A stretch of 64,000 nt of DNA from Parvibaculum sedimenti (lineage in GTDB: Bacteria > Pseudomonadota > Alphaproteobacteria > Parvibaculales > Parvibaculaceae): contig NZ_WESC01000005.1 in NCBI RefSeq assembly GCF_009184905.1, positions 186,001 through 250,000 of the forward strand. The letters are read 5' to 3'. The notes beneath the pieces were generated by a model. That model was not told where the DNA came from and searched no databases. It saw only the letters and a list, made by a program, of their open reading frames with translations. The translations under genes were made by a program, and so were the position numbers. Positions 58,195 to 64,000 of the stretch are shown in pieces; positions within the stretch are counted from its first letter, which is position 1; the number at the start of each line of letters is the position of its first letter.

Positions 58195-58271
58195 GGCGGA
58201 GTAGCTCAGCTGGCTAGAGCAGCGGAATCATAATCCGCGTGTCGGGGGTTCGAGTCCCTCCTCCGCTACCA
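58195..58271 (+). tRNA. tRNA-Met (CAT), elongator type
   Basis: Acceptor GGCGGAG/CTCCGCT, anticodon stem GCGGA/TCCGC with loop ATCATAA (anticodon CAT), and encoded CCA at 58269-58271. The acceptor and anticodon arms match the elongator tRNA-Met; the Ile2 type that becomes lysidine-modified is less likely. The sequence composition changes immediately after it. Confidence 0.93.
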
Positions 58272-58506
58272 CCTTTCTCAACACCCCTATAAATCAAAGG
58301 CTTGGAGAGTTCCTTCGGTACGGGTTCGGGTGAAAATGTACCACTCGGATGGCTCACAAGCCAAGAGCGGGGTTATCTGCTAGCAATCTCTACAAGTCGG
58401 ACAGTGATGGCTGTGAACCGAATCTTGCTTGTAGTTTCAGGTCCGCATGAATCACCGGCGATTTTGACCCGAGAGGGTCGCTAGACCCTCATCCGGACGA
58501 TGTCCA
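58272..58506. other. Intergenic start of the genomic island
   Basis: 235 bases after tRNA-Met with lower GC content and no supported gene; no integrase fragment is visible. Sequence with repeated GGTAC/GTACC near 58317-58342 is present. No direct repeat of the tRNA end was found inside the window. Confidence 0.5.
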
Positions 58507-59466
58507 ATGACCGAACAGATGCTTGACGGCGCTCAGACCAACTTACTCGAAAGGCCTCGCCCTCTGACGATCGGGATTTCCACTCGAGCGTTATTCGACC
58601 TAGAGGAAGAGCACCGAGTTTTTGAAGAGCAAGGTGTGGAAGCGTACTCGAAGCTTCAGCGTGAGCGAGAGAATGCTCTCCTCGCCAAAGGTACGGCATT
58701 TGACGTCGTTGAGCGGTTGCTTGCGTTGAATCCGTCCGGTAGCACGAGCTTGGTGGAAGTGATTCTGCTTTCTCGCAATTCTCCCGATCTATCGCTTCGC
58801 GCGTTCAACTCGGTCAAAGAATACGGACTGCGTATCGAACGCGGCAGCTTCACAAGCGGACGTCCTGTGGCCCCCTTCGTCGGTGCATGGAATATTGATC
58901 TATTCCTTTCAAACGATGAGGGTGACGTTCAGACGGCGGCTCGTGCAGGAACAGCGGCCGCAAAGCTAGGGTCTCCCCCCGAGGAGCGATTGCAGATACC
59001 AGAAGATGAGGTGCGCTTTGCGTTGGACGGAGACGCCGTTGTTTTCGATGCAGAATCGGACCGCATCTTTGCGGAGCAAGGTTTGGAAGCCTTCTTTGAG
59101 CATGAGACAAAGAACGCCCAGGTCCCCCTAAACCGGGGACCCTTTGGAAATTTCTTGCATAAGCTGGCCAATCTTCGCGCTCAAGTCGCGCGAGGAGACG
59201 GCACAAGCAGAGTTCGTATCGCGATCGTCACCGCGCGCAATGCTCCAGCACACGCGAGGGTGGTCTATACGTTGCGAGCTTGGGGGACGCCGGCTGACGA
59301 GGCACATTTCGTTGGCAGAAATGAGAAGGCACCGATATTGCGCGCTCTGGGAGCTCACATATTTTTCGACGACCAGCAAAAGCATGTTTTGGGAGCGTCC
59401 GGGGTTGTGCCCGCCGGACTTGTCCCCGGTCCTCACGATCCACACAAACCCATCATACCGGCGTAA
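58507..59466 (+). CDS. 5'-nucleotidase (cytosolic, PF06189 type)
   Basis: A 319-residue HAD-like phosphatase. The start LTIGISTRALFDLEEEHRVF and the ALNPSGSTSLVEVILLSRNSPD segment match the cytosolic IMP/GMP-specific 5'-nucleotidase family, with DGDAVVFDAESDRIF and RIAIVTARNAPAHARV supplying the acidic and basic motifs. It should remove phosphate from nucleoside monophosphates. It is the first gene of the low-GC island. Nucleotide depletion is a known defence strategy, but no direct link is shown. Confidence 0.85.
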   Translation: MTEQMLDGAQTNLLERPRPLTIGISTRALFDLEEEHRVFEEQGVEAYSKLQRERENALLAKGTAFDVVERLLALNPSGSTSLVEVILLSRNSPDLSLRAFNSVKEYGLRIERGSFTSGRPVAPFVGAWNIDLFLSNDEGDVQTAARAGTAAAKLGSPPEERLQIPEDEVRFALDGDAVVFDAESDRIFAEQGLEAFFEHETKNAQVPLNRGPFGNFLHKLANLRAQVARGDGTSRVRIAIVTARNAPAHARVVYTLRAWGTPADEAHFVGRNEKAPILRALGAHIFFDDQQKHVLGASGVVPAGLVPGPHDPHKPIIPA

Positions 59467-59553
59467 CGACTTGTGTGATTTAGAAAGTGCCGCCGATTAT
59501 CTCAATTGGCAGTGCAACAATTAGCCCATCAAATAGCCCAGAAGCGCTGTAGT

Positions 59554-60093
59554 TCATTCGATAACAACAGCTGTTCCGCTAACCGCTAGCATCAACATCG
59601 CCGTGTTCTTCCCATTCAATTGGCTGTAGCTAAATTGTGTGCCGACTATGGCATTGGCGCCCCTTAGAGCCGCCTCCCGTTTCAGATCGGTCAGACACGA
59701 TTGTCGCATTAGTCTTAGTTCGCCCTGTATGCCTTCGGCGCGCCCGCCAATGAGGTCGTTAACACCAGCTGAAAGAATTCCAAGTAGGCCGATCCCAGAA
59801 ACACACTCGGCGCCAACGATATCGATGCGCTTGACAATCCTAAGATCTGGAAAAGCCGACTCTGTGGTCACAAGAATTGAGCTAGCGACCCTTGCCAGGA
59901 CGGCCTCTGTCAGTGTCGACCCATCGCCTGTCGAGTGATACAGAGCGAGTTCCTGAGCGATACGCTCATCTTTGTCCAAAAAAATCGTTTGATCGCTGAT
60001 TTGAAACTTATAACCGCAACCGCATGCCTGATGGGTTTGATCTATGGCGACCACTGAATAACAATTCGGACACTCGAGTTCGACTTTACTCAT
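59554..60093 (-). CDS. YbjQ (UPF0145) protein with N-terminal zinc ribbon
   Basis: A 179-residue protein. Residues about 7-30 contain C-x2-C and C-x-C (CPNCYSVVAIDQTHQACGCGY), a likely zinc ribbon. The C-terminal ~110 residues are YbjQ-like: DIVGAECVSGIGLLGILSAGVNDLIGGRAE in pieces and REAALRGANAIVGTQFSYS. YbjQ domains form pentamers of unknown function. I chose Met at 60093; 60123 is possible. It follows the GIY-YIG gene by about 55 bases and may belong to the same transcript. Confidence 0.8.
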   Translation of the reverse strand: MSKVELECPNCYSVVAIDQTHQACGCGYKFQISDQTIFLDKDERIAQELALYHSTGDGSTLTEAVLARVASSILVTTESAFPDLRIVKRIDIVGAECVSGIGLLGILSAGVNDLIGGRAEGIQGELRLMRQSCLTDLKREAALRGANAIVGTQFSYSQLNGKNTAMLMLAVSGTAVVIE

Positions 60094-60149
60094 CTCTCTT
60101 TCGCTCCCGGGAGGCTGCATCAAACTACCTAAACTCGGAATCGGACGGA

Positions 60150-61334
60150 CTAACTCTCCTCTCGTTTCAACGATGCGGCCTTCGGGTCGTAGATGTAATT
60201 GCCGATCGTCCCGTCCTTAATTCGTTTTACGGCCTCGTCGATGACGAAGAGCGGCACAAGAAACCACTCTCGTGGGACCACCGGATTGCCAAAACGGTCT
60301 TTGATCTCGATGTCGAGGCGCGCGGGGTCGAAAATGCGATGGATGATATTTTCCAGCTTGATCCGGTTGATATTGAAGAGCTCATAGGTTGCGATCACTT
60401 CGACGTCGGCCATGAGAAAGGTCGGCTGCAGGCGCGCGCCGGCTATGCGCTGCTCGACGCTCATATTGGTGACGCCGATTTTGTGAACGAGATCGCGATT
60501 CTGAGCGACGAGCGGGTGATCGGACTTGCTGCGCAAGACATAGATCGTTCCGCTGGCCTGATCGTCTTCGCCACGCTCGCCAGAAAAGAGTGGACCCGCA
60601 ACAGGGTCAGTAATCCGTCGCCCGGCTTCATCCTTATTGAGTGCTCGCTGGAGCGAGCGCATCAGCATGTTGCTTTCGGTTCCGTTGTCGAAGATCACGC
60701 GCAACCGAGCATCCGACCGGCCTTGGTCGTTCGTAAACACCTCGCCCATGTCGGAAACATAGGCCTTCTGACCACCAACAATGAACCAGCTTCCCGGCCT
60801 AATCTCTGCCTTGAGCTCGAACGGCCTTGTTTCACGAACGCCGGTCTCGAGTTCTTTCTGCAGCTGCGCAAATAGCGGCTTGAAGCGGTCAAAGTCCTCG
60901 CATCTGTCGCGGTTGGCGACTTCTTCAGCGGCGCGCTTCTCTACACTTCTCCGGACATGACGAAGCTCAGTTAGATCGCCAGCGACTCCCGCCCCCTCTA
61001 GCTCCGCAAGAAGCTCGTCGTCGCCCATTTCCTCAGCTGTGGAGGTCACGGAACTTTCGGTCCCCGTCAGAAGTCCCTGATGATCTAATGGCGCGAGAAT
61101 TGATCGGCATTCCTCCAGCGCGCGTATTCGGTCGAGACGCACCGCATAGAGCCGTTCGAAAATGTCTCGATCCTCGCCATGCTGAGGAATTCGCCCATGT
61201 TCCTCGACAAAACGCTGGATATCTTCAAAGCCCGCGATGATGCGCTCCTCCCGCGGCGAGCGTCCGCCTTTCTTCTCTGGCTGAGCAAACTCGTCCAATT
61301 CCTCGCGCAGCTCGTCGAGGTCGAGATCACTCAT
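60150..61334 (-). CDS. GIY-YIG nuclease-like protein (T5orf172/MUG113 type)
   Basis: A 394-residue protein. The N-terminal part is charged and coiled, with FVEEHGRIPQ near residue 42-50, similar to a motif at the end of the helicase. A middle domain has GSWFIVGGQKAYVSDMGEVF. The C-terminal GIY-YIG domain (about 265-360) shows GTIYVLRS, KIGVT, QRIAGAR and LENIIHRIF, so the usual tyrosine, arginine and glutamate appear present. Start ATG overlaps the helicase stop by eight bases. It is probably the cutting subunit. Confidence 0.82.
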   Translation of the reverse strand: MSDLDLDELREELDEFAQPEKKGGRSPREERIIAGFEDIQRFVEEHGRIPQHGEDRDIFERLYAVRLDRIRALEECRSILAPLDHQGLLTGTESSVTSTAEEMGDDELLAELEGAGVAGDLTELRHVRRSVEKRAAEEVANRDRCEDFDRFKPLFAQLQKELETGVRETRPFELKAEIRPGSWFIVGGQKAYVSDMGEVFTNDQGRSDARLRVIFDNGTESNMLMRSLQRALNKDEAGRRITDPVAGPLFSGERGEDDQASGTIYVLRSKSDHPLVAQNRDLVHKIGVTNMSVEQRIAGARLQPTFLMADVEVIATYELFNINRIKLENIIHRIFDPARLDIEIKDRFGNPVVPREWFLVPLFVIDEAVKRIKDGTIGNYIYDPKAASLKREES

Positions 61335-63417
61335 AGCGTCCCTCATCTTTAAAGCGCACAAAGGCGGCCGCTCCTTCGGCCATCCGCTTTTCCCAGGCAT
61401 CCGTCGAGCTTATGGAGGGGAGGCGGCCCCGTTCTTTCTTGAACTTGACGGCGCGGATGGCAAGGTCCTTGGCTTCCTCCGGCGTCAGTTTGGTTCGCTT
61501 GGCGGCAATTGCCGCCGCGACTTGCTTCAGGCTGTCCTCGCTCATGGTCTTTGCGAGGATTGCATAGGCTTCGCCAAAGGGGTTTATGCGGTCGATCAGA
61601 TCGATGTCCAGTTCGCGCATGTCTAACGCAAACTTGCGCACACCGTCGATCAACGCCGTGTTGACGCCCGGTTCATTATCGACGCCTCTGCCACCACCTG
61701 TATCAGTGCTTCCATCGTCACCCAGCAGAAGCTGCTTGGCTTTCTGGGTCAGGTTGAGAGCGGCAATGGCGTGCTGTCGCACGGCTTCCTGGTCCTCGTC
61801 ATCAAGATCAGGATATTTCTCCTTGATGATCTTGCCCATCCGGAGCTGCGTCAGTTCCTCCGGAACGAGTTCTTCGTCGAATAGGCCTCGTTCAATGGCT
61901 GTCTTGTCCTGGACGAAGGTGGCAATCACCTCGTTCAGGTCTTCCTGACAGATGCGGGTTGCTTCCTTGCTTTTGGGTTCGACCAACCCCTTGATCTCGA
62001 TCTGGAAGTGTCCGGTCGCCTCATTGAAGCCGACATTGCACTGGTTCGGATCGTAGCCGCCTTCGCCATAGTTATAGCCCAGCGCCGGTCCGTTGTCGGG
62101 ATTCTTAGGTTTGAACTCGAAGCGAGGCGCGAGTACCTGCTCCATGAGAAGGCTCGCCGCAATGGCTTTCAGCGTATCGTTGACGGCCTCCGCGACGGCC
62201 TGTTCCGAGGCATCCGGCTCCGCGATGAGGTTCGTGAAGCGCGCGCGCGTCTTCCCCGGCGCATCGCGCGTTGCGCGGCCGATAATCTGCACGATCTCGG
62301 TCAGGCTTGACCGGTATCCGACAGTCAGCGCGTGCTCGCACCAAATCCAGTCGAACCCTTCCTTCGCCATGCCGAGCGCGATGATGATGTCCACATAGTC
62401 GCGGTTGTTCTTCTGTGCGGGGTCTTTCAAGGCGAGCGAGACTCGATCCCGTTTGGCGGGATCGTCGTCGACCAGATCGGCAATCCGCAGAACGCGACCT
62501 TCCGGCGTCTTAACTAGCTGAAATCCGGTCGCGGGGTCCGATCCCTGCCATTCCCCAAGCGCGCTTATGATGTGCTCGACTTCCTTGATCTTGTCCTTCG
62601 TGCTCTCGCGCGAATTGACGTTGGGAATGTGAACGATGGTTTTCTCGTCGGGATCGAGCACATTCAGGATACTGTCAGCGTAAGAGCCCGAATAGAAGAA
62701 ATAGCCGATGTCGAGCTGCTTCAGATATTCATAGCCGTTGAGCTGTTCGTAGTAGGTGTAGGTAACGGTATCGAACTTCGCTTCGTCATGCGGCGCCAGA
62801 ACGGCCTCTGCATCACCCCGAAAATATGAGCCGGTCATAGCCACGATATGCACGCGGTCGCGCGCAATGAATTGACCGAGATGTAGACCAAGCTTGTTAT
62901 CCGGATTGGCGGAGACATGGTGAAACTCGTCAACCGCGATCAGACGGTCGTCGAAAGCCTCCACGCCGAACTGGTCGACGGCGAACCGGAAGGTAGCGTG
63001 GGTGCAGACTAGAACCTCGTCGTCGCTCCGCAGAAAGGCCTCGACTGATTTGACCTTACCTCCGTTGTCGGAGCCTGGCGCGTTGCAGAGATTCCATTTC
63101 GGTTCGACATGCCAGTCCGTCCAGAAGCCATATTTGCTCAGCGGCTCGTCGTTGAAACTCGCGCCGATCGACTTTTCCGGAACCACGATGATCGCTTGCT
63201 TGATGCCTTGATTTTGCAGCTTGTCGAGCGCGATGAACATCAGCGCGCGGCTCTTGCCGGAGGCCGGCGGCGACTTGATGAGCAGATATTGTTCGCCGCG
63301 CTTCTCATAGGCGCGCTCCTGCATGGGACGCATGCCCAAGGCATTGGACTTGGTTGATGAGCCATTGCGAGCATAGGAAACGGAGACAGAGGGTACGGAT
63401 ATCTTCTTTTCGGTCAC
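61327..63417 (-). CDS. SF2 DEAD/DEAH-type helicase, restriction-type
   Basis: A 696-residue superfamily 2 translocase. Walker A is SPPASGKSRA (residues 49-58). Motif II is AVDEFHH (161-167), so DEFH replaces DEAH. Motif VI is QIIGRATRDAPGKTR. The C-terminal third is helical and its last ~40 residues carry KKERGRLPS, like a motif in the GIY-YIG protein. Its start overlaps the methyltransferase stop (ATGA). It probably is the motor of a restriction or defence complex. Confidence 0.87.
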   Translation of the reverse strand: MTEKKISVPSVSVSYARNGSSTKSNALGMRPMQERAYEKRGEQYLLIKSPPASGKSRALMFIALDKLQNQGIKQAIIVVPEKSIGASFNDEPLSKYGFWTDWHVEPKWNLCNAPGSDNGGKVKSVEAFLRSDDEVLVCTHATFRFAVDQFGVEAFDDRLIAVDEFHHVSANPDNKLGLHLGQFIARDRVHIVAMTGSYFRGDAEAVLAPHDEAKFDTVTYTYYEQLNGYEYLKQLDIGYFFYSGSYADSILNVLDPDEKTIVHIPNVNSRESTKDKIKEVEHIISALGEWQGSDPATGFQLVKTPEGRVLRIADLVDDDPAKRDRVSLALKDPAQKNNRDYVDIIIALGMAKEGFDWIWCEHALTVGYRSSLTEIVQIIGRATRDAPGKTRARFTNLIAEPDASEQAVAEAVNDTLKAIAASLLMEQVLAPRFEFKPKNPDNGPALGYNYGEGGYDPNQCNVGFNEATGHFQIEIKGLVEPKSKEATRICQEDLNEVIATFVQDKTAIERGLFDEELVPEELTQLRMGKIIKEKYPDLDDEDQEAVRQHAIAALNLTQKAKQLLLGDDGSTDTGGGRGVDNEPGVNTALIDGVRKFALDMRELDIDLIDRINPFGEAYAILAKTMSEDSLKQVAAAIAAKRTKLTPEEAKDLAIRAVKFKKERGRLPSISSTDAWEKRMAEGAAAFVRFKDEGRYE

Positions 63418-64000
63418 GCGCCTCTTCCCTTCCTCTTCTTTACGGCAGAGCCCTGTCCGCCCGTCATCTTAGTGTAGAGCTCAAATAACTTTTCCAGCCG
63501 TTCGGTATCGTTCCTAAAGCGCCGGCCGATATAGATGCGCTCCAGAATCTCGTCGTTATGCTCGTGCGCCTCGCGTAAATCGGCTGGCATGTCATCGGGA
63601 TCATAGAGATCAGCAATGGTGGCCGGAAAGTGCGTTTCTCGCGCCAATAAGATTTGCTCCGCACAGTGCGTAAGGTCAGCCCTGTTCTTATCGGTGAGCA
63701 CTGGAATAGGAAATGTGTTGTAAACGAGAGTATTTGAATATCTAGGGTCGGACTTTAGTCGTCCTGCGACCGCTTTGACCCAACTCATGTGCAGCTTTGA
63801 TGAAAGAATACTCAGAATATAATTTTCGGGGTCGTAGATGACTTGAATGGCGTCCGTAACGATAGCCGGAGGCAGCAGTACCCCAATTGGAAGGTATTCT
63901 CGTCGCTCAGTCGTTGTTCGGGGAACGACAAGCATCGATCTCTTTGCTTCGTGCACGTACCTAAATCTGTAAGGAATGTGTATGAGACTCATCGCGACTT
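63414..64000 (-). CDS. MmeI-like DNA methyltransferase, C-terminal part
   Basis: At least 194 residues of the C-terminus; the frame runs off the window, so the SAM-binding and catalytic motifs are outside. The ending GRLKSDPRYSNTLVYNTFPIP and HDEI-like AHEHNDEILERIYIGRRF resembles the target-recognition/C-terminal region of MmeI-type and related class I DNA methyltransferases. It is the first known gene of the overlapping operon with the helicase and GIY-YIG genes and would provide specificity and self-protection. Confidence 0.78.
   Translation of the reverse strand, partial: VAMSLIHIPYRFRYVHEAKRSMLVVPRTTTERREYLPIGVLLPPAIVTDAIQVIYDPENYILSILSSKLHMSWVKAVAGRLKSDPRYSNTLVYNTFPIPVLTDKNRADLTHCAEQILLARETHFPATIADLYDPDDMPADLREAHEHNDEILERIYIGRRFRNDTERLEKLFELYTKMTGGQGSAVKKRKGRGA

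Follow-up and report, generated by a model that had tools for sequence, protein, structure and literature searches.

The Question Raised by the Locus

At the end of a 64,000-nucleotide stretch of the Parvibaculum sedimenti genome (the window, G000:C37:186001-250000; contig NZ_WESC01000005.1) lie the 3' end of a methyltransferase gene, a helicase gene and a gene for a GIY-YIG protein, and the question arises whether these three form a restriction system and, if so, of which kind. The initial annotation had suggested a multi-subunit restriction system with a layout matching nothing that could be named. The second half of this claim had to be given up, as the locus is a copy of the DnmA(YeeA)-YeeB-YeeC cluster already described in the passages available from two reports (PMC9973331, PMC7261158) and does not represent a novel type. 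The first half stands as the probable reading: a DnmA-YeeB-YeeC-type restriction-modification operon which is ATP-driven, multi-subunit and single-strand-modifying. The Bacillus subtilis cluster gave no restriction in published tests.

Three Overlapping Genes

The three genes are encoded on the minus strand and are transcribed in the order methyltransferase, helicase, GIY-YIG protein.

63414 to 64000, minus strand: 3' end of a DnmA/MmeI-type DNA methyltransferase gene, comprising the end of the target recognition domain (TRD) and the C-terminal domain (Pfam, MmeI structure match)
61327 to 63417, minus strand: YeeB-like superfamily 2 (SF2) helicase, 696 amino acids (DEAD/ResIII matches and motifs)
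60150 to 61334, minus strand: YeeC-like protein, 394 amino acids, T5orf172/GIY-YIG (Pfam, alignment, structure model)

The coordinates confirm the single operon with overlaps of 4 and 8 bases which had been proposed initially. The GTG start of the helicase and the stop of the methyltransferase share 4 bases, and the helicase and GIY-YIG genes share 8 when the ATG at 61334 is used; the listed open reading frame (ORF) of the latter opens at 61400, and the start at 61334 agrees with the annotated homologues. All three reading frames are open in the window copy. The contig runs on for 4,027 bases past the window, leaving 1.9 kb of sequence ahead of the operon.

A Methyltransferase without Its Own Nuclease

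The complete methyltransferase has 917 amino acids (L002:5415-8168, on the same contig and running beyond the window). It is matched by the Pfam models MmeI_N (1e-33), MmeI_hel (9e-26), MmeI_Mtase (2.5e-108), MmeI_TRD (2.3e-68), and MmeI_C (1.3e-18), and the part inside the window by MmeI_TRD (4.3e-37) and MmeI_C (2e-19). MmeI (PDB 5hr4) was its sole solved relative in a sequence search, with an E value of 4.5e-138. The in-chain PD-ExK nuclease of Type IIL/IIG enzymes is absent: the N-terminal domain has no D...ExK site, and in the alignment the window methyltransferase shows GGVLQTNNIHIAI where MmeI relatives have D-x9-ExK (DLFWPGVLLVEQK or a similar stretch). Extension upstream thus yielded the whole enzyme without a nuclease site and added no complete known system, and the absence of ExK bears out the suggestion that the motor and the nuclease are separate proteins here and that the methyltransferase carries no nuclease of its own. 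Among 68 methyltransferases the mean pairwise identity was 77% for the N domain, 81% for the core methylase, 45% for the TRD, and 85% for the C domain. The TRD is therefore the most variable part, and its low identity fits the expectation for changing specificity.

In one relative, L118 (G072), an in-frame TAG divides the methyltransferase gene, the helicase and GIY-YIG frames being open, and in L132 (G666) an ExK-bearing MmeI-type enzyme lies within an open frame of 1871 amino acids with an N-terminal extension of about 930 residues of unknown type.

In-Chain Nuclease versus Partners in trans

The MmeI_Mtase family was searched for in 387 Alphaproteobacteria genomes, and 40 of the 51 best matches were analysed; the window itself, two matches cut at contig ends, and eight others were omitted. 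In L125 a pattern search also hit ExK, but away from the aligned nuclease site, and this hit was left out of the nuclease count. ExK was missing from 17 loci in 16 genomes, of which 16 have the helicase and the GIY-YIG protein and the seventeenth reaches the contig end after the methyltransferase. In the 23 loci which keep D...ExK no helicase or GIY-YIG relative was found in any of the 21 that could be tested, the contigs of the other two being too short. The partners thus occur in 16/16 testable loci without ExK versus 0/21 with it: a nuclease in cis and a helicase with a GIY-YIG protein in trans are mutually exclusive. The methyltransferases lacking ExK form one side of a fully supported tree branch, and with the window's own genome included they were present in 17 of the 387 genomes among the matches looked at.

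Co-occurrence of the Three Genes

When genome contigs were scanned with the helicase, at least 551 relatives came out, the best 80 of which were kept for locus counts; as these are the closest relatives the sample is biased. Pseudomonadota account for 68 of the 80 and six further phyla for the others, some being metagenome bins (treekit labels). The methyltransferase lies upstream of the helicase in 77 loci, the remaining three having about 1.1 kb or less upstream, and the GIY-YIG gene lies downstream in 79, one contig stopping at the helicase. Such identical order wherever the contig has room is not due to chance. A second set of 21 loci included plasmids; four of them repeat loci of the 80, and L011, a 30-residue fragment, was omitted. 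Here the GIY-YIG gene was present in 20 and the methyltransferase in 19, flanks being short where either was missing. The three-gene order holds down to 44-47% helicase identity. Chance neighbourhood was hence rejected on the order in the 80 loci, the loci at 44-47% identity, and the partnering with ExK-less methyltransferases, and the co-occurrence by which the initial annotation had proposed to check its operon is found in the 80 related loci as well as in all 16 testable ExK-less loci of Alphaproteobacteria.

Plasmid records matched the helicase in 264 of 72,556 cases and the GIY-YIG protein in 224, and phage records gave only weak or partial helicase matches (3/50,697). The helicase occurs in nine of 398 Bacilli genomes, two of these being seeds, and at full length in four of the 27 genomes of the genus, the own one included, a fifth holding a 30-residue fragment. 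On a conjugative plasmid of Nitrobacter hamburgensis (L092) the cluster has a CBASS operon on one side and an McrBC-like pair on the other.

The Helicase and the GIY-YIG Protein

The gene identities given in the initial annotation, namely an MmeI-like methyltransferase end, an SF2 helicase with DEFH as motif II, and a GIY-YIG protein, agree with Pfam and the motifs. The helicase is matched by DEAD (3.6e-6) and ResIII (8.5e-6), together with weak helicase C-terminal and PMBR matches. Its motifs are PPASGKS, DEFHH, TGSYFRGD, AKEGFDW, and QIIGRATRD, and PPASGKS, DEF/HH, TGSYFRGD, AKEGFDW, and QIIGR.TRD are kept in 21/21 aligned helicases. Helicase identity is 80-89% across several phyla, which together with the invariant motifs indicates strong purifying selection on the partner genes. 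In the AlphaFold model (predicted local distance difference test, pLDDT, 62; predicted template modelling score, pTM, 0.44) Foldseek matched SF2 enzymes in general, including HsdR of EcoR124I and HamB of Hachiman, at a TM score of about 0.2. Profile searches with the helicase and GIY-YIG proteins against solved structures gave no usable match.

The GIY-YIG protein is built of a helical N-terminus, an SH3/KOW-like middle part, and a C-terminal T5orf172/GIY-YIG domain, where Pfam matches T5orf172 (1.2e-11) and MUG113 (1.1e-13). Tyr265, Lys285, Gly287, Arg296, Glu328, Glu356, and Trp357 are invariant in 26/26 aligned proteins. The intact catalytic residues claimed at first were thus found in part: the first Tyr, the YIG Gly, the Arg, and the Glu are in place. 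Lys occupies what is presumably the place of the second Tyr of I-TevI, a position at which some active GIY-YIG enzymes such as Hpy188I also use Lys. The best Foldseek match of the model is to eIF5A/EF-P-like folds and covers the middle domain only.

The Known Cluster and Other Named Systems

In the passages available from PMC7261158 and PMC9973331, DnmA is described as an MmeI homologue without an endonuclease motif, its commonest neighbours being a helicase at +1 and a T5orf172/GIY-YIG protein at +2; the group is said there to have been noticed earlier by Morgan et al. (2009), and a Type I-like role to have been suggested. Of the features of the cluster, the operon has an ExK-less MmeI-family methyltransferase, an SF2 helicase next downstream, and T5orf172/GIY-YIG as the second gene downstream. 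The horizontally acquired setting is shared with the B. subtilis cluster too, the window copy differing in the host phylum and probably in the target site. According to the same passages (PMC7261158, PMC9973331), C-terminal stretches of the Vibrio crassostreae homologues are missing from YeeB and YeeC of B. subtilis. In the B. subtilis genome used as a control only the MmeI_TRD and MmeI_Mtase models matched. Two recent reviews, in the parts available, mention DnmA solely among the orphan or regulatory methyltransferases. The cluster is common and its best studied copy looks inactive; no demonstrated mechanism or system name was found in the literature covered, which takes in few subscription papers and no preprints. 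Intact plasmid-borne copies would make the restriction question testable.

With MmeI and the Type IIL/IIG enzymes the operon shares the MmeI_N, hel, Mtase, TRD, and C domains and, as inferred, adenine methylation on one strand; the MmeI relatives, however, have D...ExK in cis and no helicase or GIY-YIG partners. The PADLOC model REase_MTase_IIG matches the methyltransferase at an E value of 2.5e-277 and labels it as a Type IIG restriction enzyme despite the missing nuclease. This label would imply an ordinary Type IIG/IIL enzyme whose neighbours are unrelated to it, a reading which is highly improbable in view of the nuclease site without ExK, the tight co-occurrence, and the gene overlaps; the sequence refutes it unless the N-terminal domain is a nuclease of another kind. 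Type I systems (HsdRMS) likewise combine an N6-adenine methylase with an ATP-driven motor and have extra genes, RhuM included, after the methylase. The window system, in contrast, has its TRD inside the methyltransferase and no HsdS, and no HsdS-type ORF was found from the start of the island to the end of the contig. Its nuclease is a separate GIY-YIG protein, whereas Type I systems have PD-ExK on HsdR; no HsdR-like fusion of motor and PD-ExK was seen, the helicase showing only helicase-type and weak PMBR matches in Pfam. The predicted one-strand methylation and a helicase are shared with Type III (Mod/Res), where Res carries its own nuclease and Mod is not known to belong to the MmeI family. 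DISARM has no support on this contig, which stops 1.9 kb beyond the operon: its DrmMI model matches the methyltransferase at 7.6e-29 compared with 2.5e-277 for the IIG model, and DrmA, DrmB, and DrmC did not match any of the three operon proteins, with DrmD alone at 0.005. BREX models had no match among the operon proteins, on a contig which ends upstream of the operon.

How the Operon May Work

The MmeI-type enzyme would read an asymmetric site via its TRD and methylate an adenine on one strand. At unmethylated sites the nuclease-less methyltransferase would recruit the YeeB ATPase, which may then travel along the DNA, and the GIY-YIG domain of YeeC would cut. DnmA methylates one A of the asymmetric GACGAG, as stated in the available passages (PMC7261158, PMC9973331). 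As the complement of this site has no A, only one strand is marked, so that replication yields, at each site, one daughter duplex without the mark, and the system must spare such sites. Cutting at single unmarked sites would kill the host. The unmarked sites of one daughter all share the same orientation, and a check for two inverted sites would therefore spare it; this orientation logic is established for Type III enzymes, which follow an inverted two-site rule. The simplest way to spare replicated DNA would be a comparable demand for a pair of unmethylated sites in inverted orientation, which the motor would sense. Such a rule fits a system with an ATPase, and it fits the finding (PMC7261158) that loss of dnmA does no harm; the latter suggests that the partners depend on the methyltransferase for their action. 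We infer complex formation, translocation, cleavage, and the two-site rule. Observed here, and arguing for restriction, are the gene content, loss of the nuclease site, exclusion between cis and trans, kept order and strict partnering, invariant motifs, variable TRD, and carriage on plasmids and islands. Also in its favour, V. crassostreae deleted for dnmA and yeeB is reported, secondhand in the available passages, to be more sensitive to some phages (PMC7261158, PMC9973331).

A number of points weigh against restriction. The second canonical Tyr of YeeC is replaced by the invariant Lys, and no Asn could be assigned. The AlphaFold model of this protein (pLDDT 77) has a pTM of 0.41 and gave 0 Foldseek matches in the PDB at E<0.001, hence no match to a GIY-YIG nuclease fold, and the helicase model is too poor for claims. 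The exclusion between cis and trans is confined to a single clade and so reflects one evolutionary event, not many. The match to the B. subtilis cluster was drawn from the layout and the published description, not from a direct protein alignment. For that cluster the passages available from PMC7261158 and PMC9973331 state that deletions of dnmA, yeeB, and yeeC left the growth of three phages unchanged, that plasmid uptake was unaffected by deletion of dnmA, and that phage genomes show no avoidance of the DnmA motif; its authors term it a relic. A regulatory orphan methyltransferase whose partners have decayed or been repurposed, as they proposed, would also account for the gene-expression effects seen in B. 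subtilis (PMC7261158, PMC9973331) and for the split methyltransferase of L118. For the window copy such a relic is nevertheless unlikely, given its open frames, the strong purifying selection on the partner genes, the frequent plasmid carriage, and the variable TRD. Similarly unlikely is a BREX- or Pgl-like exclusion, where methylation and the motor would block phage replication without cutting and YeeC would bind DNA or act as a sensor. Little is known about T5orf172 proteins, and the change of the second Tyr to Lys and a middle domain resembling SH3/KOW folds would suit this role; the GIY Tyr, Gly, Arg, and Glu are, however, invariant in all 26 proteins, and the partner genes replace a lost nuclease site.

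A Slot for Accessory Genes

Methyltransferase and helicase genes touch in 36 of the 77 loci which have both (34 with the same 4-base overlap) and are spaced by 200-7,000 bases in the other 41. In 27 of the spaced loci the first ORF of the gap opens in a 4-base overlap with the methyltransferase stop; an alternative count of 30 takes in ORFs running past the helicase start and was not used. The wider gaps are mostly filled by swappable extra genes (loci L012-L091). RhuM was found in 10 loci, an unknown family of 260 amino acids in seven, a 277-residue family with an invariant RDFRNYIH (HEPN-like by motif) in five, a 286-residue family in four, a 343-residue HxK family (PLD-like by motif) in four, and Schlafen AlbA_2 and the YhcG/DUF1016 nuclease in three each; smaller families resemble PIN, DUF559, and BrnT by eye. 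The published neighbourhood study, in its available passages, names only one uncharacterised family nearby (PMC9973331). On the helicase tree the filled or empty state requires at least 21 changes, 10 of them forced by well-supported branches, as compared with a mean of 25.8 for shuffled labels, so that clustering of the state is slight. In the window copy the methyltransferase and helicase genes overlap, with no slot gene between them.

RhuM also stands after hsdM in two plasmid Type I loci (L108, L112), in the same relative position. The 260-residue family occurs in three further plasmid loci outside restriction-modification operons, which speaks against assigning every slot gene to restriction-modification systems without distinction. 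A swappable slot is a pointer to unstudied effector genes. Only tentatively can the cluster be regarded as a separate restriction class, in which nuclease-dead Type IIL recognition would be joined in trans to a GIY-YIG nuclease and to an ATP-driven motor whose purpose would be to cope with single-strand modification through a check of two inverted sites, and in which the slot would dock back-up effectors (HEPN-like, PLD-like, Schlafen, RhuM) as in Type I.

A Probable Genomic Island Setting

Two further features describe the surroundings of the operon.

58272 to 64000, no strand: left part of a genomic island which holds the operon and extends past the window (tRNA-Met 3' end, GC content, genus comparison)
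58195 to 58271, plus strand: tRNA-Met(CAT), likely attachment site (tRNA position, genus comparison)

A tRNA-borne genomic island, beginning at the tRNA-Met 3' end, probably holds the operon. Sequence conserved in genus relatives breaks off at or just past this end, and the GC content drops across the tRNA from 0.62-0.69 to 0.51-0.58. On contig C2 (about 150523-150634) the final 18 bases of the tRNA and the stretch which follows recur beside a phage-type integrase, with 90% identity across 113 bases, of which roughly the first 76 are identical. In three genus relatives no KdpD/KdpE, the pair beside this candidate second attachment site, was found following tRNA-Met.

Near the contig end, beyond the window, a frame of 489 amino acids (L002:8377-9846) lies some 0.2 kb upstream of the methyltransferase gene and has no Pfam match. 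With an HNH-like DHHIVPASW stretch and weak PADLOC matches to PDC-M34B/M55C, it looks like a truncated defence gene.

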